From a virus, in IMG/VR virus record IMGVR_UViG_3300031578_000034, positions 1 to 59,340 of that record: a stretch of DNA of 59,340 bases; one strand, written 5' to 3'. The notes below the pieces were generated by a model, which was given only the letters and a program-made list of their open reading frames with translations, was not told where the DNA came from and did not search any database. Of this stretch, positions 1,736 to 59,308 are shown piece by piece (position 1 is the stretch's first letter; the number at the start of each line of letters is the position of its first letter). A program made the position numbers and the translations under genes.

Positions 1736-4504
1736 CTATACTGTAGCCACTAGAGGAATTAGGCACGTTCCATACACAGGCACAGACACTAATATACCAC
1801 TATTAAGTAATGCTCCAACTGTTGCTACAATGGGTGCAGATATCTCTGCAAATATCTTAGACGCCCACACCTGCATTCCTGTTCCATTCGCAACAGTTGC
1901 ATCAAGCCTAGCTGCTACTCCTGCTGCAGCAGAAACTTTAGCTAATAACCCTATTACTCCAGCCAAACCACACACACCTACACCAGCTGCCCCAGCCTCA
2001 CCAAAAACACCATACGCCAAAGCACCAGCTTGACCAGTGCCAGCTAGCCCATAAACGCCTGTGCCATAAGATACGTGCGCAGCTTGGCCGTATACTCCTG
2101 TGGCTGCTGATCCACCAACGTAACCATTTACACCCACAGCCTTCTGTGCAGCACCCACGTTCCCCGCCGACCCATAAAGGCCAACTATATTGGCTGCTCC
2201 GTTATTACCATTAGCGACAAAGTATCCGGCTAAATCTGCGGCTGTGCCGCGAACACCAAACGATGCTGATGCAGATCCGTACACTGCTTGATTTCCTGCA
2301 CCAAAACTACCGCCGTACGTTCCTGGAACCGTTCCTAAAACGGCGCCATCTCCTTTTGCAGTAACGTATATTCCACTATCCACAAAAGCACTAACGTAAA
2401 TTCCAACATTTCCTCCAGTGGCATTAACGCGCATTCCAGTTTCTTTTGCTTGTACAAATGCTCCAGTATTTCCGCCAACTGTTACATACGCACCAGTATT
2501 TCCGCCAGCTACGATATATGCACCAATATCTGCTACTGCTGCCGCATATACACCAGTGTTGACTTGGGCCACAAACGATCCTCCGTAATCGTTAGCAGCC
2601 CCACCAATTACACCCTTGTCACCGCCAGCTTCGCCGTATACCCCACTATCAACTGCAGCAATGCAGTATGCGCCTACATCTGTATCTGCAACTGCTAGAG
2701 CGCCCATATTTGGAGCCCATGCGTAAACGGCCGGTCCAGTAGCATCAAAAACCTTTAGTCTTGCACTAATAGGTTTTGTGTGCCTACCATCGGAATCGTG
2801 CTCTTCGTACAATTCATCTTTTGTGTCTGCAGTTCTAAACGTCCTTATATCTCTAAGATTATAGTGGATATCTCCAATGTTGTTCCAGGTTACAATCCCT
2901 ACACGCAAAAATTCGTCAAAAGGCTGATCTGAAATATTTAAATCTATATCGAATGTTGACGCGTTGTCTCCACCTAATGCACCTGTAGAAACTCCTATAA
3001 TTATCCAGTTATCTGTATCTTGTGAGTATATCTTGTAAATACCTGCGTATCCGAGCATACCAATACCTGCGTCAAATAGCTTCACAGCAGTTCCAGCCGC
3101 ACCATCTCCAGGAGCTTGCCACTCTAGTGTTTGATCCGCCGCCGTCCAAGTTAAAGTTCCATTTCCAGAAACCTTATTTTGCATGTCAAGGATCTCTAAG
3201 AACCCAGAAAACAGCACCCGCTCATCTGCGGCGTTCAAAGGCGCATACTCAGCAATTTTTACGTATTGTAAATCACCAGCGCTGTTAACATATATCATGT
3301 AGTCGCCAGAAGCTAGCGCTGGCGTTATATCAAAGTATAGCCTCCCATCTGTTCCAGCAGCAATATTATTTAGAGTTTGATAGTTTATACCGTCCACTAA
3401 AAATGTATTACTAAAACCACCTATGTTAGTTACATCTATAGAATCTGCAACAGCATTTATTGTAGGAGCTAACTGCGTACTGTCAGCGTCATAAGATATA
3501 CCATTTTTATGAAACAAATCAGCGTGGTCAAACGTACCACCTTCAATATCATTCATTGTGATACCGTGCGGGTTATTCTTGGCGGGCGTACCAGAGCCAG
3601 TCAAATCTCTGTGCACCGTATCTTCTGCACTAAATTTAGGTATTGTACTTCCGTATAATGCCTGTATGTATATTGTGTCAGACTGATCTACTACAGGCAG
3701 ACCAGAGTATGTTACGTCAGCTTTTATCCAGTAAGTAGAATCGTTGGAATAAACAGTATATTCACCACTCGTAGTTATTGGAATGCCTGCGCCCTCAGCA
3801 TCTCCGGGAGCTTTCCAATATAGCGTTTTTGTTGCTGCCACAAACCGTAATGTGCCGTTTCCGATAAGTGTTTCATCAGAGATGGACGAAAGCGTTACAC
3901 CTGTTATATTAGATGGTTGCGTTGGTGTCGGGTGCGTTTTAGGCTGCACGACTTGTTGTATGTTTGCCGCTTGAAGAGCAGTTCCTGCACCTTGTGCAGT
4001 TACCTTAGCAACTAAAATTCTTTGTCTTAGATTGGATGTAGTAAGTGCCGCCCATTGTGTAGCTGTTAATACCGATACACGATAACTTTCTGCTACAATT
4101 GTGTCGTGTTCTGTATATGGAAGCGTTGTTTCAGCTAATGGAATAGTTTCAGTCTCGGAATATACCAATGAGACATAATTAATAGTGCCAGATGTATAAC
4201 TTGCGAGCGCCTGTCCGGAGATTGTTCCACCGGTAACTTCAGTTGTAAGAGTTGAAATTCGTTCTCCAGCGTCATCTCCATTTACTTCAGCTTGAAGATA
4301 TTTTCCACCGCAATAGCCAATGCCTGCACCGATATCAATCAATGTAGCGTCAACAGCGTTTACAGTTACACGAAAACCCTCAGCGATACCCATCTGGCAC
4401 GCACTATCAATCCGGCGAATTATAGCTTGTCCCTTAGAGGATTCAGTATAGTTCAGCTGTGTCTGTGTTGGTCTAGTATAATTGAAATATTTTGATCTTT
4501 CCAT
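1736..4504 (-). CDS. Long tail fibre / receptor-binding protein with 10-residue repeats
   Basis: 922 residues. The N-terminal third holds beta-rich segments typical of phage virion-attachment domains. The middle contains two related blocks built around phrases such as GNGTLTW and GNGTLRF, followed by APGDA/G. The last third (about 1900-2710 in DNA) is a run of degenerate 10-residue repeats of the form G-[AI]-[YF]-V-x3-G-N-T, very rich in Gly, Ala and Val, which fits a triple-stranded or solenoid beta fibre. The C-terminus is hydrophobic. It is the last gene of the tail-fibre group and converges on the + strand group. It most likely contacts the host surface. The gene ends 12 bp from the convergent exported protein. 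Confidence 0.65.
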   Translation of the reverse strand: MERSKYFNYTRPTQTQLNYTESSKGQAIIRRIDSACQMGIAEGFRVTVNAVDATLIDIGAGIGYCGGKYLQAEVNGDDAGERISTLTTEVTGGTISGQALASYTSGTINYVSLVYSETETIPLAETTLPYTEHDTIVAESYRVSVLTATQWAALTTSNLRQRILVAKVTAQGAGTALQAANIQQVVQPKTHPTPTQPSNITGVTLSSISDETLIGNGTLRFVAATKTLYWKAPGDAEGAGIPITTSGEYTVYSNDSTYWIKADVTYSGLPVVDQSDTIYIQALYGSTIPKFSAEDTVHRDLTGSGTPAKNNPHGITMNDIEGGTFDHADLFHKNGISYDADSTQLAPTINAVADSIDVTNIGGFSNTFLVDGINYQTLNNIAAGTDGRLYFDITPALASGDYMIYVNSAGDLQYVKIAEYAPLNAADERVLFSGFLEILDMQNKVSGNGTLTWTAADQTLEWQAPGDGAAGTAVKLFDAGIGMLGYAGIYKIYSQDTDNWIIIGVSTGALGGDNASTFDIDLNISDQPFDEFLRVGIVTWNNIGDIHYNLRDIRTFRTADTKDELYEEHDSDGRHTKPISARLKVFDATGPAVYAWAPNMGALAVADTDVGAYCIAAVDSGVYGEAGGDKGVIGGAANDYGGSFVAQVNTGVYAAAVADIGAYIVAGGNTGAYVTVGGNTGAFVQAKETGMRVNATGGNVGIYVSAFVDSGIYVTAKGDGAVLGTVPGTYGGSFGAGNQAVYGSASASFGVRGTAADLAGYFVANGNNGAANIVGLYGSAGNVGAAQKAVGVNGYVGGSAATGVYGQAAHVSYGTGVYGLAGTGQAGALAYGVFGEAGAAGVGVCGLAGVIGLLAKVSAAAGVAARLDATVANGTGMQVWASKIFAEISAPIVATVGALLNSGILVSVPVYGTCLIPLVATV
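1900..2710 (-). repeat. Coding repeat array in tail fibre (about 30-bp period)
   Basis: The protein read from the minus strand shows repeated units of about ten residues, for example GAYIVAGGNT and GAYVTVGGNT, then more diverged copies. The period of about 30 bp makes the array prone to slippage, which could alter fibre length or receptor contact between isolates. Confidence 0.55.
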
Positions 4505-15538: not shown

Positions 15539-17608
15539 TTATAATAGAGGGTTTTCAAAGGCACTAGAAATCCCCTCAGAGATTTCTTTGCTCTTTTTAT
15601 CGTAGTATTCCATCGCGCTATCAAATTTTTTCTCGTAATCAGTTTGAAACCGAAGTCCAGGAAGCTCTGGAAGCTGGTCTTTTCCAGTATTTACGCGGTA
15701 TAAGTTTTCTGACTTTACAATATACGTATACAGATCCGGAGCGGGCATCAACTCAGATCTCCCAAAATTGGAGTTTATAGATGTTGTTGGCTCCGCGCCA
15801 ATTGGAATGTTGTGCGTTAGCGAGTTCACGTAGAATATTTCTCGATCTGGAACAATAAAAAGTGGAGATGCAACTTCTAGCTCTGGGCGAAATACAATAT
15901 TATCCTGTCTTGTATACAGCTGCGCGTTTTCAAACATCAAGAGTTCCCGCGCAGCAAGATCCATAAATTTGACATGATCTCCATCACGAGTGACTAATTT
16001 TGGGTTAACATTGAACAGCGGGTTAGTGACTGATCCACGGCGGTATCCGAATCTACGCAGCAGGTTTGTGGCTGTATAGCTACCAACTAGGTCAACTACC
16101 CTAGGGTCTGCATCAGAAAACGGGTAAAACCCCTCTAAATGTAAGAATGTTTTTAGCTCTTCGACATTATATGAGCTAGATGTTGATATGATCTCTTCTG
16201 GCCCGATCACCTGCATTCCGGGAAAAAGCCGTTCGTGGTGCACAGGATCGTTGTTTTCCTTTAGATACACTAAATCATACTTTAAAAAATCTGTTCCCAG
16301 ACGTATGGGGTGGTAGCGCACATTCCCAAACCCGTCAACGTACAAATTGTAGTACACCATTTCTGCCACGCCCTGGATTATACTTAGGCGCGAGTCAAAA
16401 GAGGACTCAAACGTTTTAACAGATTGCGTATTCCAAATCCTATATGGCGTGGTCTCAGACCCCCAACTGCTAACAAAGCGCTTTCTAGTATGCTTAGTCA
16501 ATTCCAAGGCTTTGCGTAGACTGAAATTATCCTTTCTGTACGCACCGTTCTCTACAAAGAGGTCTAAGGCCTCATCCGTACCACCAGATCCGTCAGCAGT
16601 TGCATTTGTGGCAACTCCAAAATTTCCAAGACCAAAGAAAGATAGATACCCACTTTTTTTATTTTTAGATTTCGCATCTGTATCAGCAACTGTTATATCT
16701 GCGATGCGCCCCTTTACGGGATCCCACTTTAAAGATCCGCCAACAAACATTGCGTTTATTATTTCAAAATGATCTATCCCGTAAAAAGGTTTATTGAATA
16801 TATTTATGGCCTCTTTAGTGCTACGCTCACCTACTTGGATAATGGAAGGTTGTACCATCTCATAACTAACGCGCGCTAGTTCCAGGGAATCTCGGCATTC
16901 TAATGTAAGTGACGTAAATCCCTCTGTATTAGAATCACTGATTGACGTTATGTACCCATCAAACAATGGAAAGGTCCAATCTTTATACATGCGTCCCTTT
17001 GACCAAACCATAATTGGAAGCATCGGAGCAAATAATTGACTCAGTATGTTAAACGTTTTGTCGAAGAACAGACGCAACTTTCCGTCTCTAGTCAAATTGT
17101 AGCTATCGCGGATATCTATTGTAGATGTACCTATTCCGGAAGATACCTTATTTACTACTACATTGGTAATGAAAAAGTTGATCAAGTAGTTTATAAACAG
17201 AGATATATCTTCGTCATTTCCCATGACGCGAGCTTGCTGAAGGGCATCATAGAGTGGAGACTTCTTCCAGTTCTTTCCATACGATAAAACGTACTCAAAG
17301 TAATATGAAAAAAACTGTAATAGGTTGTGCCCCACACGCTTAAGTGTTTCTCGGGATACAGGGCGTTGCCCTGCCAACGGCTGCCCGTCATCATCGGTTT
17401 CAGAAAGCACAAAGGTGTGATTGAAGTCAATAGACACAAGTATCTCAGGCCTATACGTGTTATCTGGAACTATATATGGGATGCCTAGGCTTGGAACAAA
17501 GTAGTTTTTTACGAACGGAAAAAACGCTTCGTGCTGCTGTCCCGGTCCATGACGAACAGAATAGCTATATAGCTCTTTCGCTAGAGCACTAGCAATCACA
17601 TCAGGCAT
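15539..17608 (-). CDS. Baseplate hub protein (gp27/gpD-like)
   Basis: 689 residues, beta-rich. The stretch around WTFPLFDGYITSISDS and FTSLTLECRDSLE matches the way gp27/late-control D/XkdQ-type hub proteins describe their first tube-like domain, and the length fits hub proteins with an inserted domain. It lies between the LysM-domain-like tail protein and the spike, the position hub genes occupy in contractile phages. The last 40 residues are helical and charged. The start codon shares a base with the previous stop. Confidence 0.65.
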   Translation of the reverse strand: MPDVIASALAKELYSYSVRHGPGQQHEAFFPFVKNYFVPSLGIPYIVPDNTYRPEILVSIDFNHTFVLSETDDDGQPLAGQRPVSRETLKRVGHNLLQFFSYYFEYVLSYGKNWKKSPLYDALQQARVMGNDEDISLFINYLINFFITNVVVNKVSSGIGTSTIDIRDSYNLTRDGKLRLFFDKTFNILSQLFAPMLPIMVWSKGRMYKDWTFPLFDGYITSISDSNTEGFTSLTLECRDSLELARVSYEMVQPSIIQVGERSTKEAINIFNKPFYGIDHFEIINAMFVGGSLKWDPVKGRIADITVADTDAKSKNKKSGYLSFFGLGNFGVATNATADGSGGTDEALDLFVENGAYRKDNFSLRKALELTKHTRKRFVSSWGSETTPYRIWNTQSVKTFESSFDSRLSIIQGVAEMVYYNLYVDGFGNVRYHPIRLGTDFLKYDLVYLKENNDPVHHERLFPGMQVIGPEEIISTSSSYNVEELKTFLHLEGFYPFSDADPRVVDLVGSYTATNLLRRFGYRRGSVTNPLFNVNPKLVTRDGDHVKFMDLAARELLMFENAQLYTRQDNIVFRPELEVASPLFIVPDREIFYVNSLTHNIPIGAEPTTSINSNFGRSELMPAPDLYTYIVKSENLYRVNTGKDQLPELPGLRFQTDYEKKFDSAMEYYDKKSKEISEGISSAFENPLL

Positions 17609-18351: not shown

Positions 18352-20301
18352 CTACCTTGAAGATCTAATGTTATATTTAGAAACAATAATAATCTTTTTA
18401 GCAATAGCTTCCTTTAGTTTACGTTCAAATAGTGCTACAGCCTCGTTCATCTTACCTTGCGCCTCAAGCGCAGCTAAGTTTTTTATTATGTTAGGGTCTA
18501 GCTGCTTCAATTTCATGAGGTGATATCCAACAGATTCTGTATAGCCGCCACTGAACCCTTGAAAACGGAGCATCTCCGCCTTTTGGCCCACAACATCGGA
18601 TCCCTTGAGTCGATCTTTTAATTCTTGAGATAATGGCTTTGCGAAGCTTTGAAGCTGCGCAGCAGTAGCAGCAATTTGTTCTCGTCCAATCTCTTTACCG
18701 TGACTAACTAAGCCTTTACCAAGCAGTTCTATAGTATCGATTGGACTTAAAATAGCCTCTCCTGCCTCTTTAGCCTCACCCTTAGTCGGGAACCTCAAAT
18801 TAAGCGCTTTTATACCAGCGCCAATAACTTCTACAAGGGCCTCTATCCCCTCGGTTAAACGCAGAACTAGTGGACGAAGCTCATCATGAATATAGTTTTT
18901 TATTTTCTGCTCTAAAGATGTTAGATTTGTAGCAATACTAGATCCTGCTTTCAGTAATTTCTTTCGGAGATCTTGTGCGCGGGCCTCCAACGTCTCTCCA
19001 GATACACGCTGTTCCCTAATAGTAGTCATAACGTTTTGAAGATTCTTTTCATTGAACGCACCCTCTGTAAACGCATCAGACATTGCTTTCTGCATCTCTT
19101 TGGACGTAAATCCAAAGTTTTTAAGCAACTCGCGGACTACTATTTTTTGGGTATCACCAGTATATGCGGATGCTTTCTCATTGATAAAGCTAGCAAAGCG
19201 CTCAAACTGCTCTGGAACACCTAAAGATTCAAAGTCTAAAATTTTTCCGGCGATTGAGCTTCCTTCTCCTAGTGCAGCTTTCCAGCCGTCCTCTAATTCT
19301 GCGGAAAAACCAGCTACTGTTTTCGACAACTCTTGACGAAGAGCAACCGGCATTTGCCCAAGTCCAATGTCTGCTGCTTTTTTTATTAGCGTGTTGTACA
19401 GCGCAGTTGTGCCGAGCAAGTCAGTGTTATACGCCTTCCTCTTGTCAACAAGCTCTGTCCAAGTATTTACATACTCGCCCATGGACATCATTATGCCCTC
19501 GTCCCCAAGAGTCTTTGCCTCTTCCCGTAAGAGCACTAAATGATCTTGTGCAATGTCTGTTGCTAATCCGAAGCTATTAACGAGGCCCTGTAACTTTGAT
19601 ACTTGATCTGCTACAGATTGTCCCTGTGCGTACTGTATTCCAAGTAGTTCACTTGCGAGCCCATTCATATCTTTCTGTTCCATGCCCGCCTTAGCTAACG
19701 AGTTTAGATATTCTCCAATAGCGTCGTACGACAATTTGAAGTTACCGCGCAGTTCTCCCATTAAGCCCGTAGCGCTCTTTAGACTTTTGTTTTGGGTATC
19801 CCATTGGCCTTGTATTTGTTTAGACATGCCCGCAATACGATTAGACTCATTGTATATCTTCAGGAATAGGGCAAGAATACCAAGCAGGCTAAGCTGTACA
19901 CCTGTAACGCTTGAAGCTGCACTTTTTAGTGTAGTGTTGATCTTTTTAAAGCTATCTACAGTTTTACCAGAAGACTTGCTCGCCATTCCTGTAGCCTCTG
20001 CAACATCCTTTCTGTTCTTCGCCTCTTCAGCAGTTAGCGAAGTGATTTCCTTTTGCAACCGTTGTATTTCTTTTAAAGGTACACCTAGCTGGAACAGAAA
20101 CCTATTTAGCTCCTCTGCTGTATCGCGCTCCTCTGGCGATATAATCTTGTTCTTACCCAAGCTCTGCAGGTCTGTCATTATGTCTCGAATCTGAGCGATA
20201 TTCTGCATGGCACCCTCAGATTCTGATCTGGCAGTCTTTAAACTCTCTGTCCACGCGCCCACAGCGGCTACGTCAAGATTAAAATTTTCACCCTCTGCCA
20301 T
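18352..20301 (-). CDS. Tail tape measure protein
   Basis: 649 residues, almost entirely helical, with heptad-like leucine/alanine patterns, a hydrophobic patch near residues 130-150 (SVTGVQLSLLGILALFLKI) and charged ends. It directly follows the frameshifted chaperone gene, the universal place of the tape measure. With about 1.5 Å of tail per residue, this length would set a tail of roughly 95-100 nm. The start ATG abuts the stop of the chaperone extension. Confidence 0.75.
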   Translation of the reverse strand: MAEGENFNLDVAAVGAWTESLKTARSESEGAMQNIAQIRDIMTDLQSLGKNKIISPEERDTAEELNRFLFQLGVPLKEIQRLQKEITSLTAEEAKNRKDVAEATGMASKSSGKTVDSFKKINTTLKSAASSVTGVQLSLLGILALFLKIYNESNRIAGMSKQIQGQWDTQNKSLKSATGLMGELRGNFKLSYDAIGEYLNSLAKAGMEQKDMNGLASELLGIQYAQGQSVADQVSKLQGLVNSFGLATDIAQDHLVLLREEAKTLGDEGIMMSMGEYVNTWTELVDKRKAYNTDLLGTTALYNTLIKKAADIGLGQMPVALRQELSKTVAGFSAELEDGWKAALGEGSSIAGKILDFESLGVPEQFERFASFINEKASAYTGDTQKIVVRELLKNFGFTSKEMQKAMSDAFTEGAFNEKNLQNVMTTIREQRVSGETLEARAQDLRKKLLKAGSSIATNLTSLEQKIKNYIHDELRPLVLRLTEGIEALVEVIGAGIKALNLRFPTKGEAKEAGEAILSPIDTIELLGKGLVSHGKEIGREQIAATAAQLQSFAKPLSQELKDRLKGSDVVGQKAEMLRFQGFSGGYTESVGYHLMKLKQLDPNIIKNLAALEAQGKMNEAVALFERKLKEAIAKKIIIVSKYNIRSSR

Positions 20302-47885: not shown

Positions 47886-48851
47886 ATGAAACTGTTAGTC
47901 ACTGGCGGCGCGGGGTTTATCGGGTCAAACTTTGTAAACTACTGTGATCAGATAGGATTAGACGTGTGCGGAGTAATTGATAAATTGACATACGCTGCAG
48001 ACCCCGATAGAATACCAGCGCATATCCCATTATTCAGACAAGATATTGCTGACGCCAACTTGTCCTATGTGTTAGAAAAGATTGATCCAGACGTGCTTGT
48101 AAACTTTGCTGCAGAAAGTCACGTAGACAATTCCATAACAGCAGTCGATGAATTTATACAATCTAATTATGTGGGCGTTCATAACATCCTGCGTCATGTG
48201 CGCTGGTTTAACCAACGCTTTAAAAAAGACATACTTTTTTGTCATATTTCGACAGATGAGGTGTGGGGAGACCTCCCACAGGATTCTACGCGGTCTTTTA
48301 CAGAGGGAGATCCAATCAAGCCTAATAATCCCTACTCTGCAACCAAAGCCGCAGCTGACCTGCTAATACAAGCGTTCTACCATACGTACCGAGACTTTAA
48401 GTCTATAATTTGTAGGGCGTCAAACAACTTCGGGCCATGTCAGCACTTTGAAAAACTTCTACCAACTGTAATCCGGAAAGCCCACAATAATGAGCCCATT
48501 CCTGTCTATGGAGACGGGTCAAACGTGCGGGAGTGGCTTTATGTAGATGATTTTACACGAGGAATACTGGCAGCGATAGAGCACATTCCACCAACAGCAG
48601 AGGTTGTTGGGTTTGGAAGCAGCAACGCTAAATCCAATATTGAGACTGTAAAAGAAGTACTTCGTATCATGAAAAAGCCAGAGAGCTTGATCTCGTTCGT
48701 GGAAGATCGGAAGGGACACGACCGACGCTACTCAGTAGACTCTTCTAAAGCCCTCACGTTGACTGGGTGGGCTCCAGAAATGAAATTTGAGGTAGGACTA
48801 CGGATCGTTGTAGAGGACGTGTTAGAGAGGCTTAAATCGAGAACAAGGTAG
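47886..48851 (+). CDS. rmlB: dTDP-glucose 4,6-dehydratase
   Basis: 321 residues from the ATG with AAGGAG upstream. It is a short-chain dehydrogenase of the extended type: GGAGFIG near the start binds NAD; STDEVWG gives the catalytic Thr-Asp-Glu of dehydratases, and PYSATK supplies the Tyr-x3-Lys pair. The enzyme converts dTDP-glucose to dTDP-4-keto-6-deoxyglucose. It stands on the + strand with its own promoter while RmlA lies on the minus strand 1.8 kb away. The two together would produce an activated deoxysugar for modification of the host surface, the virion, or phage DNA. The 3' end overlaps the convergent VWA gene by 20 bp. Confidence 0.9.
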   Translation: MKLLVTGGAGFIGSNFVNYCDQIGLDVCGVIDKLTYAADPDRIPAHIPLFRQDIADANLSYVLEKIDPDVLVNFAAESHVDNSITAVDEFIQSNYVGVHNILRHVRWFNQRFKKDILFCHISTDEVWGDLPQDSTRSFTEGDPIKPNNPYSATKAAADLLIQAFYHTYRDFKSIICRASNNFGPCQHFEKLLPTVIRKAHNNEPIPVYGDGSNVREWLYVDDFTRGILAAIEHIPPTAEVVGFGSSNAKSNIETVKEVLRIMKKPESLISFVEDRKGHDRRYSVDSSKALTLTGWAPEMKFEVGLRIVVEDVLERLKSRTR

Positions 48852-50325
48852 TCTTTGTGTCCCCGTCCTGCGAGAGGTCGTCAATTCGTGTGTAATGATG
48901 ACTAATCGTCTCCAGGTCTGCTGCGTCAGCCCCCAAGACAACCGAAAACAGAGACACGCCCAAGTCATCAAACGCCTCCTTCAGGCTCTTGCTGGTCTCT
49001 GCGTCAATCGTATCCTCACCGTCCGTGATACAGATAATGTCAGCCTTTTTAAGAGAAACGTCTTGTTCACCAACGCGGATATCCTCGATAGCCTCTTTTA
49101 GCGCGCAATTGATATCTGTTCCTCCACCAGAAAAGTATGCACAGGATTCGATGAGCTTTTCAGGGTCCGACGTACCAGCCAGAAAAACGTCTTTTCTCGA
49201 AACCCTAGAATCGAAATGGATAATCTCAAACGTCCTACGCTGTGCCATGGCAATCTGGGCAATAGCCAAGCCGATAGCCTTGCTCCAAATCTCTCGCTGC
49301 CCGCTCATGGATCCAGAGTTGTCAATGCAGAAAACAATCGGACCCTGAGACTGCTTTTCGGTAGACTCCAAGCGGTACTGCATCAGGCCCTGCTCACAAT
49401 AGCCCTTGTAAAAAAGCAGTTCCAGCGTATCGTCTCCGAGCTTCATAAGCTCAGAGGGAAGCAACCGCTCGATATTCGCACCGATTTCGATATCGATCAC
49501 TTCCTCATAGCCGTGCTTGACCTTGTTCCGCTGCACCTTTTTGGCCTCTGCCTGAAAACGTCCAGCAAGCTTAGCAATCTCCTTGAGCTTCTGGTTATCC
49601 GCCAACAGTTTGGCAATCCGCAGCTTCTGTTCCGGGTCGGTAAACCCATCATCACCGGGCTGCTTGCCGATTCCAAAAGCTGACATTTGGGCGTCAATCT
49701 CATCTACCTTGTCTGACGCCTCTTTGATTGCCCTGCGGAGCACTTGACGACCTTCGAAGCCCTGAGCAGAGGCCGCAACCTGTGCCCAACCTTTTTCAGC
49801 GGCGTCCTTGGCACCCTGCGCGTTCTTCGCCGTAACCTTCAGGTTTTCCAGGGCTTCTTCATCGATATCTTCACCATCAGCGTAATTCTGCTCCATCTCT
49901 GAGATCTCTTTACGGATTTTGTCAAGGTCCGCTTGCAGCTGCGCAGGATCATCCTTCGGTGGATCACTCTGAAGGTGCTCAGCGAAATGCTTGGTAAGCA
50001 CTGTCGCAGCCAGGCCCGACCGAAAAGCGTCCATTTTGGTGTCTGCTTCTCTAAGTGTGGAAAACTCGGGCATTTTGCTAAGCTCAGAAAAGGCGTTGCG
50101 CGCCCACTGGGTTTTTGGGTCGCCTTGCGGTTCAGGAAACTTAGGAGCAATCTTGTACATTGCAGAAAACAAGTCTTGGGAAAACTTGTCAAACGGGTAT
50201 CCCTTTGAATTTCCTTTGTCGATTTCCCTCCGGAATGTGTCAGAGGCGCCCTGAAAATCGCCCTTTTCCATTTCTTCCCAGAGTGTAACTTCAGGAAGTA
50301 CCAACCCACGAGATTCGTCGTCCAT
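48832..50325 (-). CDS. VWA-domain protein, partner of the MoxR ATPase
   Basis: 497 residues. The C-terminal 180 residues are a von Willebrand A domain with MIDAS motif DNSGS at 335-339, then GGGTDI and ITDGED. The N-terminal 300 residues are helical. In MoxR systems (RavA-ViaA, CbbQ-CbbO, NorQ-NorD) a VWA protein delivers the AAA+ ring to a substrate for remodelling or metal insertion. It is the third gene of a G+C-rich set, with its own TTGACT-type promoter and AGGAGG ribosome site. Its 3' end overlaps rmlB convergently. Confidence 0.8.
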   Translation of the reverse strand: MDDESRGLVLPEVTLWEEMEKGDFQGASDTFRREIDKGNSKGYPFDKFSQDLFSAMYKIAPKFPEPQGDPKTQWARNAFSELSKMPEFSTLREADTKMDAFRSGLAATVLTKHFAEHLQSDPPKDDPAQLQADLDKIRKEISEMEQNYADGEDIDEEALENLKVTAKNAQGAKDAAEKGWAQVAASAQGFEGRQVLRRAIKEASDKVDEIDAQMSAFGIGKQPGDDGFTDPEQKLRIAKLLADNQKLKEIAKLAGRFQAEAKKVQRNKVKHGYEEVIDIEIGANIERLLPSELMKLGDDTLELLFYKGYCEQGLMQYRLESTEKQSQGPIVFCIDNSGSMSGQREIWSKAIGLAIAQIAMAQRRTFEIIHFDSRVSRKDVFLAGTSDPEKLIESCAYFSGGGTDINCALKEAIEDIRVGEQDVSLKKADIICITDGEDTIDAETSKSLKEAFDDLGVSLFSVVLGADAADLETISHHYTRIDDLSQDGDTKTTLFSI

Positions 50326-50342
50326 CGTTGCCTCCTGATAGG

Positions 50343-50371
50343 TACATACATTGTGGGAGAGGAAAAGTCAA
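50343..50371 (-). promoter_or_regulatory. Sigma70-type promoter for the VWA gene
   Basis: TTGACT at 50366-50371, 17-bp spacer, TATGTA at 50343-50348. The upstream CC of CCTTGACT is shared with the other promoters of this cassette. The -10 box is weak. Confidence 0.45.
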
Positions 50372-50381
50372 GGAGTTTTTG

Positions 50382-51500
50382 TTACTTGGTATCGAATGCC
50401 TTACCGGCTATAACGTTGAGCTTTTCCGATACCTTGTCCAAGCAGTCCTGCAGCATCTTTTCAGTCTTTCCGGTGCGGCCGGAAAGGTCAGCCTTGATGC
50501 GCTCGCGGATCTTGGTCAGCCCGTTGTGGGCCTGTGTCATGGCCTGGAGATCCCAATCGTTATCCGCGCACATCCTGAAAATCTCCTCGGCGGCATCGGC
50601 CCACTGCACAACCTGGACCTTGATAGGATCGGCAAAGCCAATCAACTCCTTCTTCACTGTCTTCTGCTGCTCAGGCTCGTCCCACAGCACATGTGCCAGA
50701 ATGTCAAGCGCCTCAACGCCAACTTCCGATTCGCCGCGAACGTACGCCAGGGCCTGCATCAATCGAACAGCGACCTTCCAACGCCGGTCTGATACTTTGA
50801 TGCCCTTTTTGGCCAACTTGTGTCGCAGATCAATAAGATGCTTAATGATTTGGTCGTCCAGGGGCACATTCTTAACCGCGTCCTGCATTGACTTGATCTC
50901 GTCCAGCGTGATAGACACAGTGGGCTCACTGTTGCCGACTGCACCAGAAAGCAGCCCCTCGAAATTGATGTCATCCTGGATATACTCAACCCAGTAGCGC
51001 AACGGGAACCGGTCGTACAAGGCGCCAAGCTCTTCCCCTTGAGGAAGCTCATTCGACGCGCCGAAGACCGTAATCAGCGGAAGATCGATAGGCTTTCCGT
51101 TATTGTGGAACTTGCGCTCATTGATCGTGGTCAACAGCGCATTGAGAATTGCACTGTTTGCCTTGAAGATCTCGTCAAGGAAAGCGATGTGCGCTTCAGG
51201 GAGCTTATCCTTAACGTTACGCTTGTAGGTGTCTTCCTTCAGCGCTTTGAGCGACAGGGGACCGAAAAGCTCCTCTGGAGTACTGTGCTTCGTGAGCAGC
51301 CACTGAAAGTACTCGCCGCCCTCAATGGCCTTGCAGACCATGTTGGCGAGCATGGACTTGGCAGTTCCCGGAGGACCGAGCAATAGAACGTGCTGCCCTG
51401 CGACAAGAGCTACTAGCGCCCCCTCAATCTCCGCAGGCCGCTCTGTAACGATGCCGTTCAACTCGGCCTGCAACTTCTGCAGTTTTTCGAGGGCTTCCAT
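50382..51500 (-). CDS. MoxR-family AAA+ ATPase
   Basis: 372 residues. Walker A GPPGTAKS at 42-49, Walker B with FLDEIFKA, then the sensor region FGASNELPQGEELGALYDRF typical of MoxR proteins (RavA, CbbQ). They form hexameric rings that unfold or remodel a target together with a VWA partner, here the next gene downstream. The codon use is visibly G+C-richer than the structural genes. It has a TTGACA-N17-TATATA promoter and GGGAG before the ATG. It could be a protein-maturation factor or a counter-defence device. Confidence 0.85.
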   Translation of the reverse strand: MEALEKLQKLQAELNGIVTERPAEIEGALVALVAGQHVLLLGPPGTAKSMLANMVCKAIEGGEYFQWLLTKHSTPEELFGPLSLKALKEDTYKRNVKDKLPEAHIAFLDEIFKANSAILNALLTTINERKFHNNGKPIDLPLITVFGASNELPQGEELGALYDRFPLRYWVEYIQDDINFEGLLSGAVGNSEPTVSITLDEIKSMQDAVKNVPLDDQIIKHLIDLRHKLAKKGIKVSDRRWKVAVRLMQALAYVRGESEVGVEALDILAHVLWDEPEQQKTVKKELIGFADPIKVQVVQWADAAEEIFRMCADNDWDLQAMTQAHNGLTKIRERIKADLSGRTGKTEKMLQDCLDKVSEKLNVIAGKAFDTK

Positions 51501-51616: not shown

Positions 51617-52471
51617 TCACTCGCTCAAAAACGCTGCACGCACGTCCTGCTCCAGCGTATCAAGGTCGCTGGTCAGGCTGTCACCCGAGAACCGGAACGC
51701 GTCAGCGTAAAAGCTGACTTGCTCCTTCAGGGCACGGAACTCCTCGATCCGGTCTTTCCAGCACTTCGTCTGCTTGCGCTTGCTGTCCGAATCCTTCTTT
51801 TCTGCGATCTCCTCACGGAACGTGGTAATCTTACCACGCAGATCATCCATGAAGGCTCGTGTGATGCTTGAACGGCTCTTCTCTGCGTCAATCTGCGGAG
51901 CCACTGCAAAGAAGCAATCCCCGCCGATCACGCCGAGCAAGTTCTCCAGCTGCTCAATGACCTGATTGGACGCAGCGTGCAGGTAGTAGATTCCTCCACG
52001 GGCACGAACGGAAATGCTCCAATGCTGGCTGATAACGTCCAGCAGATAAGCGCGAACACCATCCGAGGTAATCTTCTCGGTGAACTCCGCATAAAGCGCC
52101 TTAACGCGGTCAAACGCGCGGTGCGGCCGGTCGCAACTGATATTGCCAGTCTGCGTGTCAAACCGCATTGTAGCTGCGTGGTTGTACCCCAAAGTCTGTG
52201 CCGCTTGGTCAATCTTTTCATCCACCAGACCGAACGCGTACTCATCTGCCTTCTTACTGATCTTTCGAATGAGCAGGCCGTCACGCTGAGCAGACTTCTT
52301 GGCCTCTCGAACCGCCTGCAGAAAAACAGAGCGATCTTTCGACTCCGGGATTTCTTTGGTGAGCCCAACTCCCCTGACGGCAGCATTGAAATCATCCCGC
52401 GAGATCTTTACATCGTGAATACTCCACCATACGAAATATCCCATAACCGACAGGCCAGCGTCATTTGTCAT
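51617..52471 (-). CDS. Accessory protein of the MoxR/VWA cassette
   Basis: 284 residues, alpha/beta with a helical C-terminal half (residues 170-280, coiled-coil-like). It opens with YFVWWSIHDVKIS. The protein resembles proteins I associate with phage and plasmid AAA+/VWA loci, possibly a DUF6744-like family, but I cannot confirm that. It is upstream of the MoxR gene, has its own promoter and AAGGAG, and shares the G+C-rich codon style, so the three genes probably form a functional unit. It could be the substrate, or an adaptor, of the ATPase ring. Confidence 0.6.
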   Translation of the reverse strand: MTNDAGLSVMGYFVWWSIHDVKISRDDFNAAVRGVGLTKEIPESKDRSVFLQAVREAKKSAQRDGLLIRKISKKADEYAFGLVDEKIDQAAQTLGYNHAATMRFDTQTGNISCDRPHRAFDRVKALYAEFTEKITSDGVRAYLLDVISQHWSISVRARGGIYYLHAASNQVIEQLENLLGVIGGDCFFAVAPQIDAEKSRSSITRAFMDDLRGKITTFREEIAEKKDSDSKRKQTKCWKDRIEEFRALKEQVSFYADAFRFSGDSLTSDLDTLEQDVRAAFLSE

Positions 52472-52511: not shown

Positions 52512-52540
52512 CTTATACTAGACCGTGTGCAGCATGTCAA
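52512..52540 (-). promoter_or_regulatory. Strong sigma70 promoter for the accessory gene
   Basis: TTGACA at 52535-52540, 17-bp spacer, TATAAG at 52512-52517. The -35 context CCTTGACATGC is identical to that of the + strand promoter at 939. Confidence 0.75.
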
Positions 52541-53783: not shown

Positions 53784-54208
53784 CGTGGTGTTTCCTTTTC
53801 TAGCACCGAAAGTTTCTCACGCAACGACTCTATACGATTATCTAGCTGTTCTATCTTAGGATAGATTGCGTCTATTTGGTTAGTAATCAATGACAATTCA
53901 CGGATAAAATCTCCGCGCAAAATAAATTTTTCTATCATCTCCAGCCTAAAACCATCAAGGTTTTTAGCTGCTGCAATTGCATGGTTTATTTGTACGTTCG
54001 ATTCAACCAACGAGTGCAGCATAGTGGCTAGGGCATCTCGATCTTTTTCTATCCTAGAAAGATCGTCTTTTACAGACTTTATTTTATCGTCTGTCGCCTT
54101 GAAAGCACGATTCATAAGCGTTTTCATCAGAGCACCAAGGCCAGCGGCGCCAGCTAGTGCTATGACGCTTAAAATATTAGATATGGTAAACACGCTTGTA
54201 TCTGGCAT
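53780..54208 (-). CDS. Membrane-anchored coiled-coil protein
   Basis: 142 residues. A transmembrane helix at about residues 9-27 is followed by a long coiled coil (KIKSVKDDLSRIEKDRDAL, IEQLDNRIESLREKLSVLEK). This is like a membrane-tethered sensor or tail-fibre accessory, and is co-translated with the receiver gene (shared base at 54208). A link to the receiver is suggested only by adjacency. Function unknown. Confidence 0.5.
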   Translation of the reverse strand: MPDTSVFTISNILSVIALAGAAGLGALMKTLMNRAFKATDDKIKSVKDDLSRIEKDRDALATMLHSLVESNVQINHAIAAAKNLDGFRLEMIEKFILRGDFIRELSLITNQIDAIYPKIEQLDNRIESLREKLSVLEKETPR

Positions 54209-54603
54209 TATCTATCCCCTAGCAACTCAAAAATTTTATTTGCAAATTCTGCAGGCTTAATCGGTTTTGTCATCCACCCACTAGCACCATACTTGGCGCT
54301 GTTGTACCGTAAATCCACAGCATCTACTGCAGATACTATGAAAATAGGTAGGTCGGACTGCACTTTTGTTTTTCTAATTTCTCTAATCATTTCCCAGCCT
54401 GTGAGCTTTGCCATCATTATATCTGTTATTACAAGCTCATATGAATTTTCTTCTAACATTTTTAACGCTTGAATAGCGTCATTCGCCCGAGCTATCTTTA
54501 TTGGCCATGCAGACTTGTAGTCTCTATCTGCATATTTTATAATAACGTCTTCTAAGAATTGTCCAGTTACTTTGTCGTCTTCTACTATCAGAATTCTGGC
54601 CAT
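54208..54603 (-). CDS. CheY-like response-regulator receiver protein
   Basis: 131 residues, a complete receiver fold: acidic pair E8/D9/D10, phosphoacceptor Asp61 in VITDIMM, Ser91 and Lys113 at the active site. There is no output domain, so it would act by protein-protein contact, like CheY or Spo0F. Phage-encoded receivers are uncommon. The ribosome site (AGGAG) lies in the right arm of a terminator-like hairpin (54603-54643). It could interfere with a host phosphorelay. An AGTTAA box lies at 54656-54661. Confidence 0.8.
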   Translation of the reverse strand: MARILIVEDDKVTGQFLEDVIIKYADRDYKSAWPIKIARANDAIQALKMLEENSYELVITDIMMAKLTGWEMIREIRKTKVQSDLPIFIVSAVDAVDLRYNSAKYGASGWMTKPIKPAEFANKIFELLGDR

Positions 54604-54690: not shown

Positions 54691-55233
54691 TTACGTTGTC
54701 TCTAACGCAGATGTCCAGTACGAAATCGATGCTAGATGGTCCTTCCACTCAGTTGGAACACTGCTCAAATGACGCAGCTTGAACACAACGTAGGGTATGT
54801 TGCTAGGCATGTATGGTTGTTTCCTTAGTACCATGCCTGCGAGTGCTGGAGACTTAGCCCCCTTTCGCAGGTTGCACTGCATACATGCAATTACAATATT
54901 CGTCCAGTTGGTCTTCCCACCACGGGATCTTGGAACAACGTGGTCAAATGTTGCATCCTCTAGCGGAACAGAAGTCTGACAGTACTGGCACTTCCCTCCG
55001 TCCCGCAGATAAATGTTCTGCCGCGAAAACTTTATCTTGCGGCTCTTGCGGGTGATCGCACGCAGCAAGCGCACAACCGCTGGGAGCTTAATTGCAATAG
55101 AAGGCGATCTAACCTCTGTGTCGTACTCTTCGACCACTTCAACCTTACCAAGCCACATCAGGGTAACTGCCCTAGTCCAAGAAATAATTGTAACTGGCTG
55201 ATAGCCTGGATCTAGCAATAGTGTTCGTTGCAT
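54691..55233 (-). CDS. HNH endonuclease (McrA-like)
   Basis: 180 residues from ATG 55233 (GGAGG upstream); a longer in-frame start overlaps the -10 box. The C-terminal part has CQYC, FDHVVPRSRGGKTNWTNIV and CMQCNLRKG, the zinc-bound HNH motif with beta-beta-alpha metal fold. The N-terminal region (PGYQPVTIISWTRAVTLMWLGKVEVVEEY) matches the short upstream domain often found in stand-alone phage and bacterial HNH proteins. It may process DNA for packaging or act on host DNA. Confidence 0.8.
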   Translation of the reverse strand: MQRTLLLDPGYQPVTIISWTRAVTLMWLGKVEVVEEYDTEVRSPSIAIKLPAVVRLLRAITRKSRKIKFSRQNIYLRDGGKCQYCQTSVPLEDATFDHVVPRSRGGKTNWTNIVIACMQCNLRKGAKSPALAGMVLRKQPYMPSNIPYVVFKLRHLSSVPTEWKDHLASISYWTSALETT

Positions 55234-55256
55234 TTTCGATCTCCTCCCATATCTCC

Positions 55257-55288
55257 ACTGTAGCATACCGAGAAAAAGTGGATTAACT
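55257..55288 (-). promoter_or_regulatory. Late-type promoter, AGTTAA-N20-TACAGT
   Basis: AGTTAA at 55283-55288, 20 bases, TACAGT at 55257-55262 (weak -10, 4 of 6). Drives the HNH gene at 55233. Confidence 0.5.
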
Positions 55289-56061: not shown

Positions 56062-56084
56062 TTCCTTAGCCTCCTCGGCTAAGA

Positions 56085-56117
56085 ATTATAGTGCAGGATC
56101 AGACTACTTATTTAACT
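56085..56117 (-). promoter_or_regulatory. Late-type promoter, AGTTAA-N21-TATAAT
   Basis: AGTTAA at 56112-56117 in CAACAGTTAAAT, 21 bases, a perfect TATAAT at 56085-56090, then AGGAGG and the ATG of the HNH gene. It is among the best copies of the late motif. Confidence 0.75.
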
Positions 56118-56138
56118 GTTGTTATACGTAGATTAATA

Positions 56139-56210
56139 TGGGCTTAGAAAGACTCGAACTTTCAACAGAAGTTTGTAGGACTTCCATGATCCCTTTTCAC
56201 CATAAGCCCA
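56139..56210 (-). tRNA. tRNA-Val (anticodon TAC)
   Basis: 72 bases. Acceptor TGGGCTT/AAGCCCA, anticodon stem GAAGT/ACTTC with loop CCTACAA, T-loop TTCGAGT. No encoded CCA. Five bases separate it from the next tRNA. The D-stem has three pairs (ATG/CAT). Confidence 0.85.
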
Positions 56211-56215
56211 AAATA

Positions 56216-56289
56216 TGCCTCTGGTCAGATTCGAACTGACACTGTTTCGCTCCTTAGGCGAACGTCTCCTTCCTTTGGACTACAGAGGC
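56216..56289 (-). tRNA. tRNA with anticodon AAG (Leu by code)
   Basis: 74 bases. Acceptor GCCTCTG/CAGAGGC, anticodon stem TTCGC/GCGAA with loop CTAAGGA (anticodon AAG, base 37 G), T-loop TTCGAAT, discriminator A. The variable region has only five bases, whereas bacterial tRNA-Leu normally has a long arm, and an A at position 34 is rare outside Arg. The identity is therefore uncertain. Confidence 0.65.
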
Positions 56290-56296
56290 GTCTTAG

Positions 56297-56302
56297 ATTA
56301 TA
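56297..56302 (-). promoter_or_regulatory. Possible -10 box for the tRNA pair
   Basis: A perfect TATAAT lies 8 bp before the AAG tRNA; 21 bases upstream is TTTTAA, a loose match to AGTTAA, inside the terminator T run. The tRNAs may thus have their own transcript besides read-through. Confidence 0.35.
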
Positions 56303-56325
56303 AGGTGCTAAGCTACCAGTATTTT

Positions 56326-56361
56326 AAAAACAACCAGTCGCGGAGGCGTTTCTCCCACTGG
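56326..56361 (-). terminator. Intrinsic terminator of the giant RNA
   Basis: Stem CCAGT/ACTGG (357-361 with 334-338 of the 56 kb block), extended by GGAG/CTCC, small loop, followed on the minus strand by TTGTTTTT. It marks the probable 3' end of the structured RNA, just before the tRNA genes. Confidence 0.8.
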
Positions 56362-57621
56362 CTCTGTCAGGGTACTAAAAAACTTTACTTTATCCCGCCA
56401 AAGATCCTGCCAAAATGGCGGGAAGCGACAGCTAAGCGGTCTGGAGTACCAGAACGCGCAAACTTTGTGCTACGGTGTCTGTCTGTTAGATTTCACAGAG
56501 CAACTATCGCCAGAGTTGCTGTGTGCGTGTCCGCAGGTTCATCCTAGGCAGTGCTGCTCTCTACAGAGCCCTGAACGCCCCGGCTACAGGGTGGATTATA
56601 CAGGTTCTCGCTCCTAGGCCTCTTGCCTTAGCACAAAAAAGCTATTGGGCATTAAGCAGTATTTCCTTGGCAGCTAACCAAGATTCATTCCCAGTTACCG
56701 CGCATCGTAAGTGATCAGCTTTCCTGGCCTGCGGGATTCACCAGTATAACGATGCTGCCCAATAAACAATTGCGGCACATGCTTCTCTAGACCTATGCTA
56801 ATGTGCTAACGTCCCGCCCACTCTGCGGGTTGTCGTGCCCAGAGCGCGGTATGGCCATCCTATTGGGTAGGCAATTGTGGCGTTTAAGAGCACATTACCA
56901 ACACGATTTGGTTGCACAAGTCAACCTAAAATGATATCTGCTAGGCCAGATTTTTCAACTGGCAACTCCATCAGGGCTCTTAACGGACTTGAGCTATCCT
57001 CTTGTCGGGGCTTCCCCAACGTTGCTCCGAGGATCTAGGCTCCTAAACCTAGAATCTCCCTCTGGGCTTTTCTTAAGCTACTAGCGGAAACTTTAAAATT
57101 AAAGCCTGTCGCGGATCCGCCGCACCGAAGGATCTCCTCCATCCCACAGGCTCTACGCTTACAACGCGAATGGCCTCATCGCCACCGGGACTCGCTTTCG
57201 CGTCGTCCTAGGCACCGTTACGGCGCCCCGCTGGTTCGCACAGCTACAAATCAAAGAACGTCTCCCTAGCGCCCCAACTAGAAAGCCGGCTCACTCATGG
57301 GCCACAACCAGCAGTGTGGGTACACCCACAGCCGCCAGTGTAGCCGGCTAGTGAACCTCGTGGCCGCTCCCATTTACCGACTGCCCGTTGCAGGCAGACC
57401 AGCCACACCCTTTTACTCGCCCTGCAGCAAATCCAGGGCGCGGGGGCTGCACCATTGCTACTTGGCTGGCTACCCCTTTCGCCCACAGTTGCTTCTAGCC
57501 CTCCACTGGTGTTCTCAGCTTCACTAGGCTAGTACCTGCAGACTCCAACCCAGGGCATCGCATCCCTGGATGTCACCGCAATATGTTGTCAAAGACCACC
57601 CACATTCGCTCTTCCCAATCT
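56326..57621 (-). ncRNA. Giant structured RNA (about 1.3 kb), GOLLD/ROOL-like class candidate
   Basis: The region has no plausible gene on either strand, is richer in G+C than its surroundings, and folds densely on the minus strand. Clear helices include 56643-56651/56756-56764 (9 bp) continued by 56702-56708/56749-56755 (7 bp); 57284-57291/57342-57349 (8 bp); 57103-57109/57146-57152 (7 bp); 57211-57217/57221-57227; 57188-57191/57205-57208 capped by CGC-GAAA-GCG (GNRA loop); 57315-57320/57325-57330; 57381-57385/57393-57397; 57550-57555/57564-57569; 56775-56780/56801-56806. It starts behind TTGACA-N17-TATACT and ends in an intrinsic terminator. tRNA genes follow directly. Large ornate RNAs of phages (GOLLD, ROOL) are likewise near tRNAs, but they are shorter. 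Family membership is inference. Confidence 0.75.
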
Positions 57622-57627
57622 ACAATC

Positions 57628-57656
57628 AGTATACGCGATCTAGATCCATTTGTCAA
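57628..57656 (-). promoter_or_regulatory. Consensus sigma70 promoter of the giant RNA
   Basis: TTGACA at 57651-57656, exactly 17 bases, TATACT at 57628-57633. The predicted start is near 57620-57621. It is one of the strongest promoters in the window and lacks an AGTTAA box. Confidence 0.85.
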
Positions 57657-57676
57657 GCTGAAAGAGAGCCCACCAG

Positions 57677-58666
57677 CTATATTTTTATATGAGGAGTATT
57701 TTCTATTGTCGTAGCGTAACTTACACGCTGGAATACTGCTTTTTCTCGCAATTCTGTCAGTGTTCTTGCCCCGACAAGCCCCATCCCCTGACGAATTCCG
57801 TATAACAGCGTTTTGGCAACTTTCTCAGCGGGACCTTTGTTTGGGACATGTGTACTGATGCCCTCTGGAATGATCCCTCGTTTGTTAGCATGTGCGTCTG
57901 ACGAGGCTAATCCACGATAGATTTTTGTTCCTGTGCCGTCATCTAAGGTTTCATCTGTTCCCGCGAACAACCCACCGCACATAACAAATGAAGCTCCAGC
58001 TGCAAGTGCCTTAACGCAGTCCGCAGAACTTTTAGCGCCGCCGTCGGAAATTACGTTTGCTTCGTGTGCACATTCTATAACGGCAGATAGTTGTGGAACG
58101 CCACATCCCGTTACACGCCTGGTCAAACATACTGCCCCTGAGCCAACCCCACACTTGATATAGTCTACCTTCAATGAGCGTAAATCACATGCAGCATCAG
58201 ACGTAGCAACATTTCCAACAACCAGATACTTATCGCTGAAGGTTCTTTTAATCCAGAGAACTTCAGCAAAGATTGCTTCAGTATACGCGTACGCCACGTC
58301 CAAAAAGAATACGTCAACAATTGGCGCTAGCGCAGTAATGGCTGCTCTATCGTCTAAGCCAACAGCTGCAGCTACGGGCATCTTGTACTCATCTTTTAAC
58401 ATAGCTGCATATTTTGCTTCTTCAACACGCTCTTGTAATGTTCTATTTATCCTATTGAACGGCACGATTACACGGAGTGGTGCAAGAGCTTTCCACATGT
58501 CTGGAGTTGCAATATCAATCATATTTGCAACCATAATCGGAGCTAGCCTTTCATACCCAAAGGCGTCAATTGTATAATCCGCGTCGAGCCTACTTTTTAG
58601 TTTGCTGTAGCCTGGGCGCAGCAACACATCATCGAACGTTAATGCATCGTCATCGTAAAACCTCAT
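57677..58666 (-). CDS. guaC: GMP reductase / IMP dehydrogenase family enzyme
   Basis: 329 residues. A TIM-barrel of the IMPDH/GMPR family: FDDVLLRPGYS at the start, phosphate-site GVGSGAVCLTRRVTGCGVPQLSAV with the catalytic Cys and Thr, SDGGAKSSADCVKALAAGASFVMCGG, and an EGIST motif. No CBS domains are present, and the length and CLTRxxTG pattern fit GMP reductase better than IMP dehydrogenase (about 490 residues). The enzyme reduces GMP to IMP and would shift purines toward adenine nucleotides. It overlaps the dCMP deaminase gene by 4 bp. Confidence 0.75.
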   Translation of the reverse strand: MRFYDDDALTFDDVLLRPGYSKLKSRLDADYTIDAFGYERLAPIMVANMIDIATPDMWKALAPLRVIVPFNRINRTLQERVEEAKYAAMLKDEYKMPVAAAVGLDDRAAITALAPIVDVFFLDVAYAYTEAIFAEVLWIKRTFSDKYLVVGNVATSDAACDLRSLKVDYIKCGVGSGAVCLTRRVTGCGVPQLSAVIECAHEANVISDGGAKSSADCVKALAAGASFVMCGGLFAGTDETLDDGTGTKIYRGLASSDAHANKRGIIPEGISTHVPNKGPAEKVAKTLLYGIRQGMGLVGARTLTELREKAVFQRVSYATTIENTPHIKI

Positions 58667-59161: not shown

Positions 59162-59232
59162 AGCCCGCACCCGGAATTGAACCGGGATCACTAACTTACC
59201 ACGCTAGTGCTCTACCATTGAGCTACGCGGGC
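59162..59232 (-). tRNA. tRNA-Thr (anticodon GGT)
   Basis: 71 bases. Acceptor GCCCGCG/TGCGGGC, D-stem GCTC/GAGC, anticodon stem CTAGC/GTTAG with loop GTGGTAA, T-stem CCCGG/CCGGG with loop TTCAATT. No encoded CCA. Confidence 0.85.
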
Positions 59233-59235
59233 GCA

Positions 59236-59308
59236 AGCCGCCGAGAGGAATCGAACCTCCAACCTGCTGATTACAGGTCAGCTGCTCTGCCAGTTGAGCT
59301 ACAGCGGC
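59236..59308 (-). tRNA. tRNA-Thr (anticodon TGT)
   Basis: 73 bases. Acceptor GCCGCTG/CGGCGGC with one G-T pair, D-stem GCTC/GAGC, anticodon stem GCTGA/TCAGC with loop CCTGTAA, T-stem GGAGG/CCTCT with loop TTCGATT. Position 33 is C rather than the nearly universal T. No encoded CCA. Confidence 0.8.

Follow-up and report, generated by a model that had tools for sequence, protein, structure and literature searches.

The window analysed here covers positions 1-59,340 of the IMG/VR virus record IMGVR_UViG_3300031578_000034, which derives from an uncultured phage. It is evidently a large tailed phage, with relatives identified for its terminase, portal and capsid, and the majority of its genes are encoded on the minus strand. 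In a simple gene call, 56062-57676 is the sole gap exceeding 0.7 kb in the window, the remainder of which is 92% coding. The region of interest lies between a guaB-like gene and the genes for tRNA-Leu and tRNA-Val, all of them on the minus strand. A second IMG/VR contig carries the region unchanged, with a single difference (at 51731) among 7,361 aligned bases, so an assembly error is unlikely. The features of the locus are as follows, in the order in which the minus strand would be transcribed for the flanking genes and signals, with the predicted RNA elements in between.

57677..58666, minus strand: IMP dehydrogenase/GMP reductase family (guaB-like) gene, Pfam PF00478 (E 8.6e-69); upstream context, outside the RNA
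57651..57656, minus strand: promoter -35 box TTGACA, 6/6
57628..57633, minus strand: promoter -10 box TATACT, 5/6; 17-bp spacer, 11/12 overall
56326..57622, minus strand: putative noncoding RNA gene of about 1,297 nt, its start taken from the promoter and its end from the terminator
57288..57357, minus strand: predicted long hairpin arm (8+7+7+6 bp), pairing probabilities 0.92-1.00, z about -3.0 to -3.4 in local folding windows
57188..57208, minus strand: predicted GAAA-capped arm GGAC..CGC-GAAA-GCG..GTCC, pairing probability 0.99
56702..57167, minus strand: predicted branched core, closed by 57167-57158/56711-56702 and 57151-57141/56737-56727
56790..56922, minus strand: predicted multi-branch subdomain with a 9-bp closure, drawn from pairing probabilities (model R2)
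56643..56764, minus strand: stacked 9-bp and 7-bp helices of the initial annotation, perfectly complementary; an alternative to the core closure
56326..56363, minus strand: intrinsic-terminator-like hairpin (56363-56332) of 11 pairs with an internal loop, then GTTTTT
56216..56289, minus strand: tRNA-Leu (ARAGORN and Rfam), about 36 bp past the terminator
56138-56210, minus strand: tRNA-Val (ARAGORN and Rfam), following tRNA-Leu

Several other genes in the vicinity merit mention in their own right. An HNH endonuclease gene (54691-55266, minus strand) resides inside the tRNA island, and a 45%-identical homologue adjoins a tRNA-Leu gene in the phage Rctr197k (L007:22227-22760); judged by this similarity, the two genes suggest a mobile endonuclease tied to tRNA islands. 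The phage also encodes a response-regulator receiver domain (54208-54603, minus strand) as well as a MoxR AAA ATPase adjoining a VWA-domain protein (48832-51500, minus strand).

The initial annotation had described the region as lacking a credible gene, and this description holds. The open reading frames of at least 30 aa within 56291-57676 reach lengths of only 31-80 aa, and their codon scores range from -0.27 to +0.09 per codon, using a codon model trained on the phage's own genes, which have a median score of +0.13. A hidden gene in which TGA or TAG is read as sense was likewise rejected, as the codon score yielded no credible gene under recoding either. Structured RNAs typically have a high GC content within AT-richer genomes. 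At 0.539, the RNA candidate has a higher GC content than any other 1,297-nt stretch in the window (mean 0.444, sd 0.030), a value on a level with the phage's tRNA genes (0.534). The feature is thus real as a gene-sized noncoding unit.

Both ends of this unit are marked by recognizable signals. The promoter is located approximately 20 bp past the stop of the guaB-like gene, on the correct strand and at the edge of the gap, and its -10 box ends about six bases before the predicted start at 57622. A perfect TTGACA-N17-TATACT promoter had been proposed; the sequence is indeed present at 57656-57628 on the minus strand, but it scores 11/12 and is therefore not perfect. Since the entire window contains three matches scoring 11/12, versus 3.2 expected from shuffles, the score alone is not significant and the weight of the promoter comes only from its position and direction. 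Another 11/12 match, at 52540, directly precedes a gene of the same orientation, which suggests that the phage does use sigma-70 promoters. At the opposite end, the intrinsic terminator that had been claimed to conclude the unit was recovered as a terminator-like hairpin followed by GTTTTT, which a simple scanner had missed because of the internal loop. The unit is also situated directly before the tRNA genes, as had been noted.

This arrangement is open to a different reading, namely that the 1.3 kb constitutes a long 5' leader preceding tRNA-Leu and tRNA-Val in one operon, which RNase P would trim off and which would have either a regulatory function or no separate function at all. The region shares the strand of tRNA-Leu at a distance of about 36 bp, and the TATAAT found just before tRNA-Leu is paired with a poor -35 and a 19-bp spacing, so transcription of the tRNAs may depend upon read-through from upstream. 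However, a terminator-like hairpin and T5 separate the region from tRNA-Leu, and a GC-rich, structured leader of 1.3 kb would come at an unusually high cost for so dense a phage genome. We consider a leader improbable.

The predicted 1,297-nt transcript folds with a minimum free energy of -512 kcal/mol (z -3.7), whereas the most stable of 60 dinucleotide shuffles reached only -493. Four coding controls of the same size yielded z values of +0.7, -0.2, -0.5 and -2.2, while the minus strand of two further intergenic gaps gave 0.3 and -0.4. As a yardstick, the ORF-less gap encoding the giant transcript of ICP1 reached a z of -2.4 on its better strand, which places the folding support for the candidate at least on par with that of one accepted giant phage RNA. 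Total stability and GC content are the properties of the candidate that exceed chance, whereas confident long-range pairs are not commoner than expected (36 vs 43 +/- 32 in shuffles) and positional entropy is only mildly better than that of the shuffles, about 10% of which do as well. Local stability peaks at 57200-57500 and 56900-57100, and the long hairpin arm belongs to the most stable local stretch. The GNRA-capped arm of the initial annotation was corroborated as the GAAA arm at 57208-57188, whereas its nested helices fared less well. The 9-bp (56643-56651/56756-56764) and 7-bp (56702-56708/56749-56755) helices are exactly complementary, and folding 56643-56764 in isolation produces them, but in the global ensemble they are displaced by 57167-57158/56711-56702 and by 56772-56769/56763-56760 (p 0.98). 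The former of these is one of the two predicted closures of the branched core (10 bp, p 0.96), the other being 57151-57141/56737-56727 (11 bp, p 0.99). No self-complementary hairpin loops, which might serve as multimer contacts, were found in the candidate.

The complementary strand deviates from its own shuffles to a similar extent (z -3.9). Because both strands are equally distant from their shuffles, it is the promoter, terminator and tRNA orientation that set the direction of the unit, rather than its folding. The equivalence of the strands could also be taken to indicate that the region functions at the level of DNA or is decayed, for example as a replication or packaging site, a foreign insertion or the relic of a mobile RNA element, and that it yields no functional RNA. 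The lack of detected homologues (see below) would agree with such an origin, as would the nearby HNH endonuclease genes, which show that mobile DNA can enter the island. Several observations argue to the contrary: 1) the GC content equals that of the tRNA genes, 2) the promoter and terminator flank the region in the right order, 3) no repeats typical of replication origins were found in the region, and 4) the Rfam scan of the region returned no intron or mobile-RNA family. A DNA-level or decayed region is, in our estimation, an unlikely explanation.

Large structured RNAs are known from phages, and the candidate had been compared in style and context to two of them. GOLLD and ROOL are encoded by phages, often beside tRNA islands, and form cages made of RNA alone (PMC12286853, 2025). 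One Lactobacillus prophage did not need GOLLD for phage production (PMC12286853; PMC7567579). The resemblance is upheld in part. The record is that of a tailed phage with five tRNAs, which corresponds to the context of GOLLD (a phage or prophage, frequently with tRNA genes nearby), and the candidate would share with both GOLLD and ROOL the character of a large, structured RNA encoded by a phage close to tRNA genes, with no protein encoded in the case of GOLLD; the tRNA-island setting, the size and the GNRA arm all belong to this likeness. Among the more general features of giant phage RNAs, the candidate displays a long ORF-free unit with a promoter and terminator, along with a fold more stable than shuffles. 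Membership is a different matter. Covariance searches, a check that had been proposed for the region, returned no match at E<=10 in the record for either the 416-position model of the conserved GOLLD 3' region (RF02032) or the 574-position ROOL model (RF03087). This type of scan does pick up diverged RNAs in general, as gauged on Y RNA only: in a sister phage it recovered a YrlA at E 3.5e-14, below the curated cut-off. Assignment to GOLLD or ROOL is thus not supported by these sequence models, and the candidate should not be filed as either.

The wider Rfam 15 cmscan of the region (all families, E<=5) produced no match aside from one tRNA and one sub-threshold match on the opposite strand, and a scan of the whole window found no family fitting the 1.3-kb region. 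The group II intron model RF01998 had no match in the record either. A Y RNA array was also considered and rejected, there being no YrlA (RF02553) or YrlB (RF02565) match within 56326-57656. Elsewhere in the window, a weak YrlA match (E 0.018) at 59209-59264 on the minus strand spans the point where both tRNA-Thr genes adjoin, so that a 3' tRNA half comes ahead of a 5' one, and it is probably an artefact of tRNA resemblance. It is conceivable that a strongly diverged GOLLD or ROOL was overlooked by the Rfam models, given the same tRNA-island context, the same style, the GNRA arm and the poor conservation of the GOLLD 5' region (PMC12286853). However, the GOLLD 3' and ROOL models detected nothing at E<=10, even though YrlA was detectable below threshold, and 1.3 kb exceeds either RNA in length, which makes this a very remote prospect. 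The greater length had been pointed out from the outset and is confirmed, as the candidate spans 1.3 kb versus about 0.8 kb for GOLLD and is more than twice the size of the ROOL model.

Further differences emerge from other phage RNAs. The most abundant noncoding transcript of ICP1 is documented by RNA-seq (PMC7567579) and resembles the candidate as an orphan phage RNA that has no Rfam family and comes from a gap of some 1 kb devoid of ORFs; yet its expression is shown, whereas the candidate is known here from sequence alone, and ICP1 lacks tRNAs, while its RNA has a weaker fold (z -2.4) and a lower GC content. The long noncoding RNAs of phage K (Kayvirus) are likewise expressed, and they were likened to GOLLD and ROOL by tRNA-gene proximity and abundance, not by sequence (PMC9241854); the candidate, for its part, has no sequence match in the phage collection.

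The search for homologues, which had also been suggested as a check, was extensive and yielded none. Searched with blastn, 50,697 phage records and 72,556 plasmid records yielded no homologue of the region, and a DNA search of approximately 60 related phage records returned only short, chance-like matches (best E 0.027). In searches for relatives of the phage, the guaB-like protein alone and the terminase alone recovered just the near-identical contig, whereas terminase and capsid alignments identified about 90 relatives, none of them in genomes. Degenerate-pattern scans by back-translation with four stretches of the region returned only the same phage in IMG/VR, and one stretch scanned against GTDB (84,980 genomes) gave no homologue. 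Single-sequence covariance models R1 and R2 detected only themselves over 61 records, as did the models R1-R3 for three subdomains over 1.25 Mb of the window and its relatives. Smith-Waterman comparisons with the relatives' gaps gave nothing clearly above shuffles except for marginal scores, the alignments of which extend over entire gaps. Only close relatives are within reach of these searches, and many of the records from related phages are fragmentary. Leaving aside the near-identical contig, none comes closer than about 70-79% in the capsid protein; consequently, failure to find a homologue is not proof that there is none. By sequence comparison, the candidate is an orphan for now. The proposal of a new family is inseparable from that of an orphan of uncertain nature for as long as no homologue is found.

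Taken together, composition, the lack of a coding signal, folding energy, promoter, terminator and context support a transcription unit of about 1.3 kb next to the tRNA genes that is self-contained, structured and noncoding. We infer its transcription, its exact fold and its accumulation. Our preferred reading, to which we assign a probability of roughly 0.62, is that 56326-57622 on the minus strand is a stand-alone structured noncoding RNA gene, for which an RNA-only scaffold, by analogy to GOLLD and ROOL, is the likeliest mode of action. For such a gene, a host-type sigma-70 polymerase would initiate at the TTGACA/TATACT promoter and transcribe 1.3 kb of untranslated RNA, stopping at the terminator ahead of tRNA-Leu. 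The RNA would presumably fold into several compact arms and a large branched core and accumulate as a stable particle during infection. More speculatively, and by analogy to GOLLD and ROOL, loop-loop and A-minor contacts could join copies of the RNA into a multimer or cage, which might hold or protect other molecules, such as tRNAs, ribosomes or proteins. We regard the formation of a multimer or cage as doubtful. More doubtful again is the ambitious possibility that the candidate founds a family of giant phage RNAs of its own, exceeds the GOLLD and ROOL chains published so far in size, and self-assembles into a distinct RNA-only particle within the tRNA island of a lineage of large phages.

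When examining related phages, it is evident that the same genomic niche harbors other structured RNAs. The sister phage G002 (L101) contains a tandem array of approximately six Y-RNA-like units at L101:4241-5067 on the minus strand, as part of a locus that also takes in 2584-4173 and 984-2123 on that strand. These units match YrlA down to E 3.5e-14 and YrlB more weakly, all under the Rfam cut-off, and several of them enclose circularly permuted tRNA halves. Genes for Ro60/TROVE and for an RtcB ligase follow directly downstream of the array. A second sister phage, G006 (L113), carries two YrlA-like units among its tRNA genes, at 17157-17298 and 18483-18619 on the plus strand (E 5.5e-7 and 9e-13). 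Sister phages use the same tRNA-island niche for Ro60-linked Y RNAs. These resemble the window's RNA as structured RNAs of tRNA islands, whereas the latter has no YrlA or YrlB match and forms one long unit instead of an array. In the sister phages G009 and G010, an ORF-poor stretch of 0.6 kb (L128:10995-11600; z -9.9 on the minus strand and -5.7 on the plus strand) matches neither an Rfam family nor, by blastn, any phage sequence; as a candidate structured RNA it surpasses that of the window in predicted folding strength. None of the RNAs from L101, L113 or G009/G010 showed sequence similarity to the window's RNA.

Given the Ro60-linked Y RNA arrays and the strongly folding 0.6-kb region of the sister phages, the tRNA islands of large uncultured phages are a place to look for giant structural RNAs. 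If a third, unrelated and larger RNA does occupy this same niche, it would indicate repeated evolution of giant structural RNAs beside the tRNA genes of phages.
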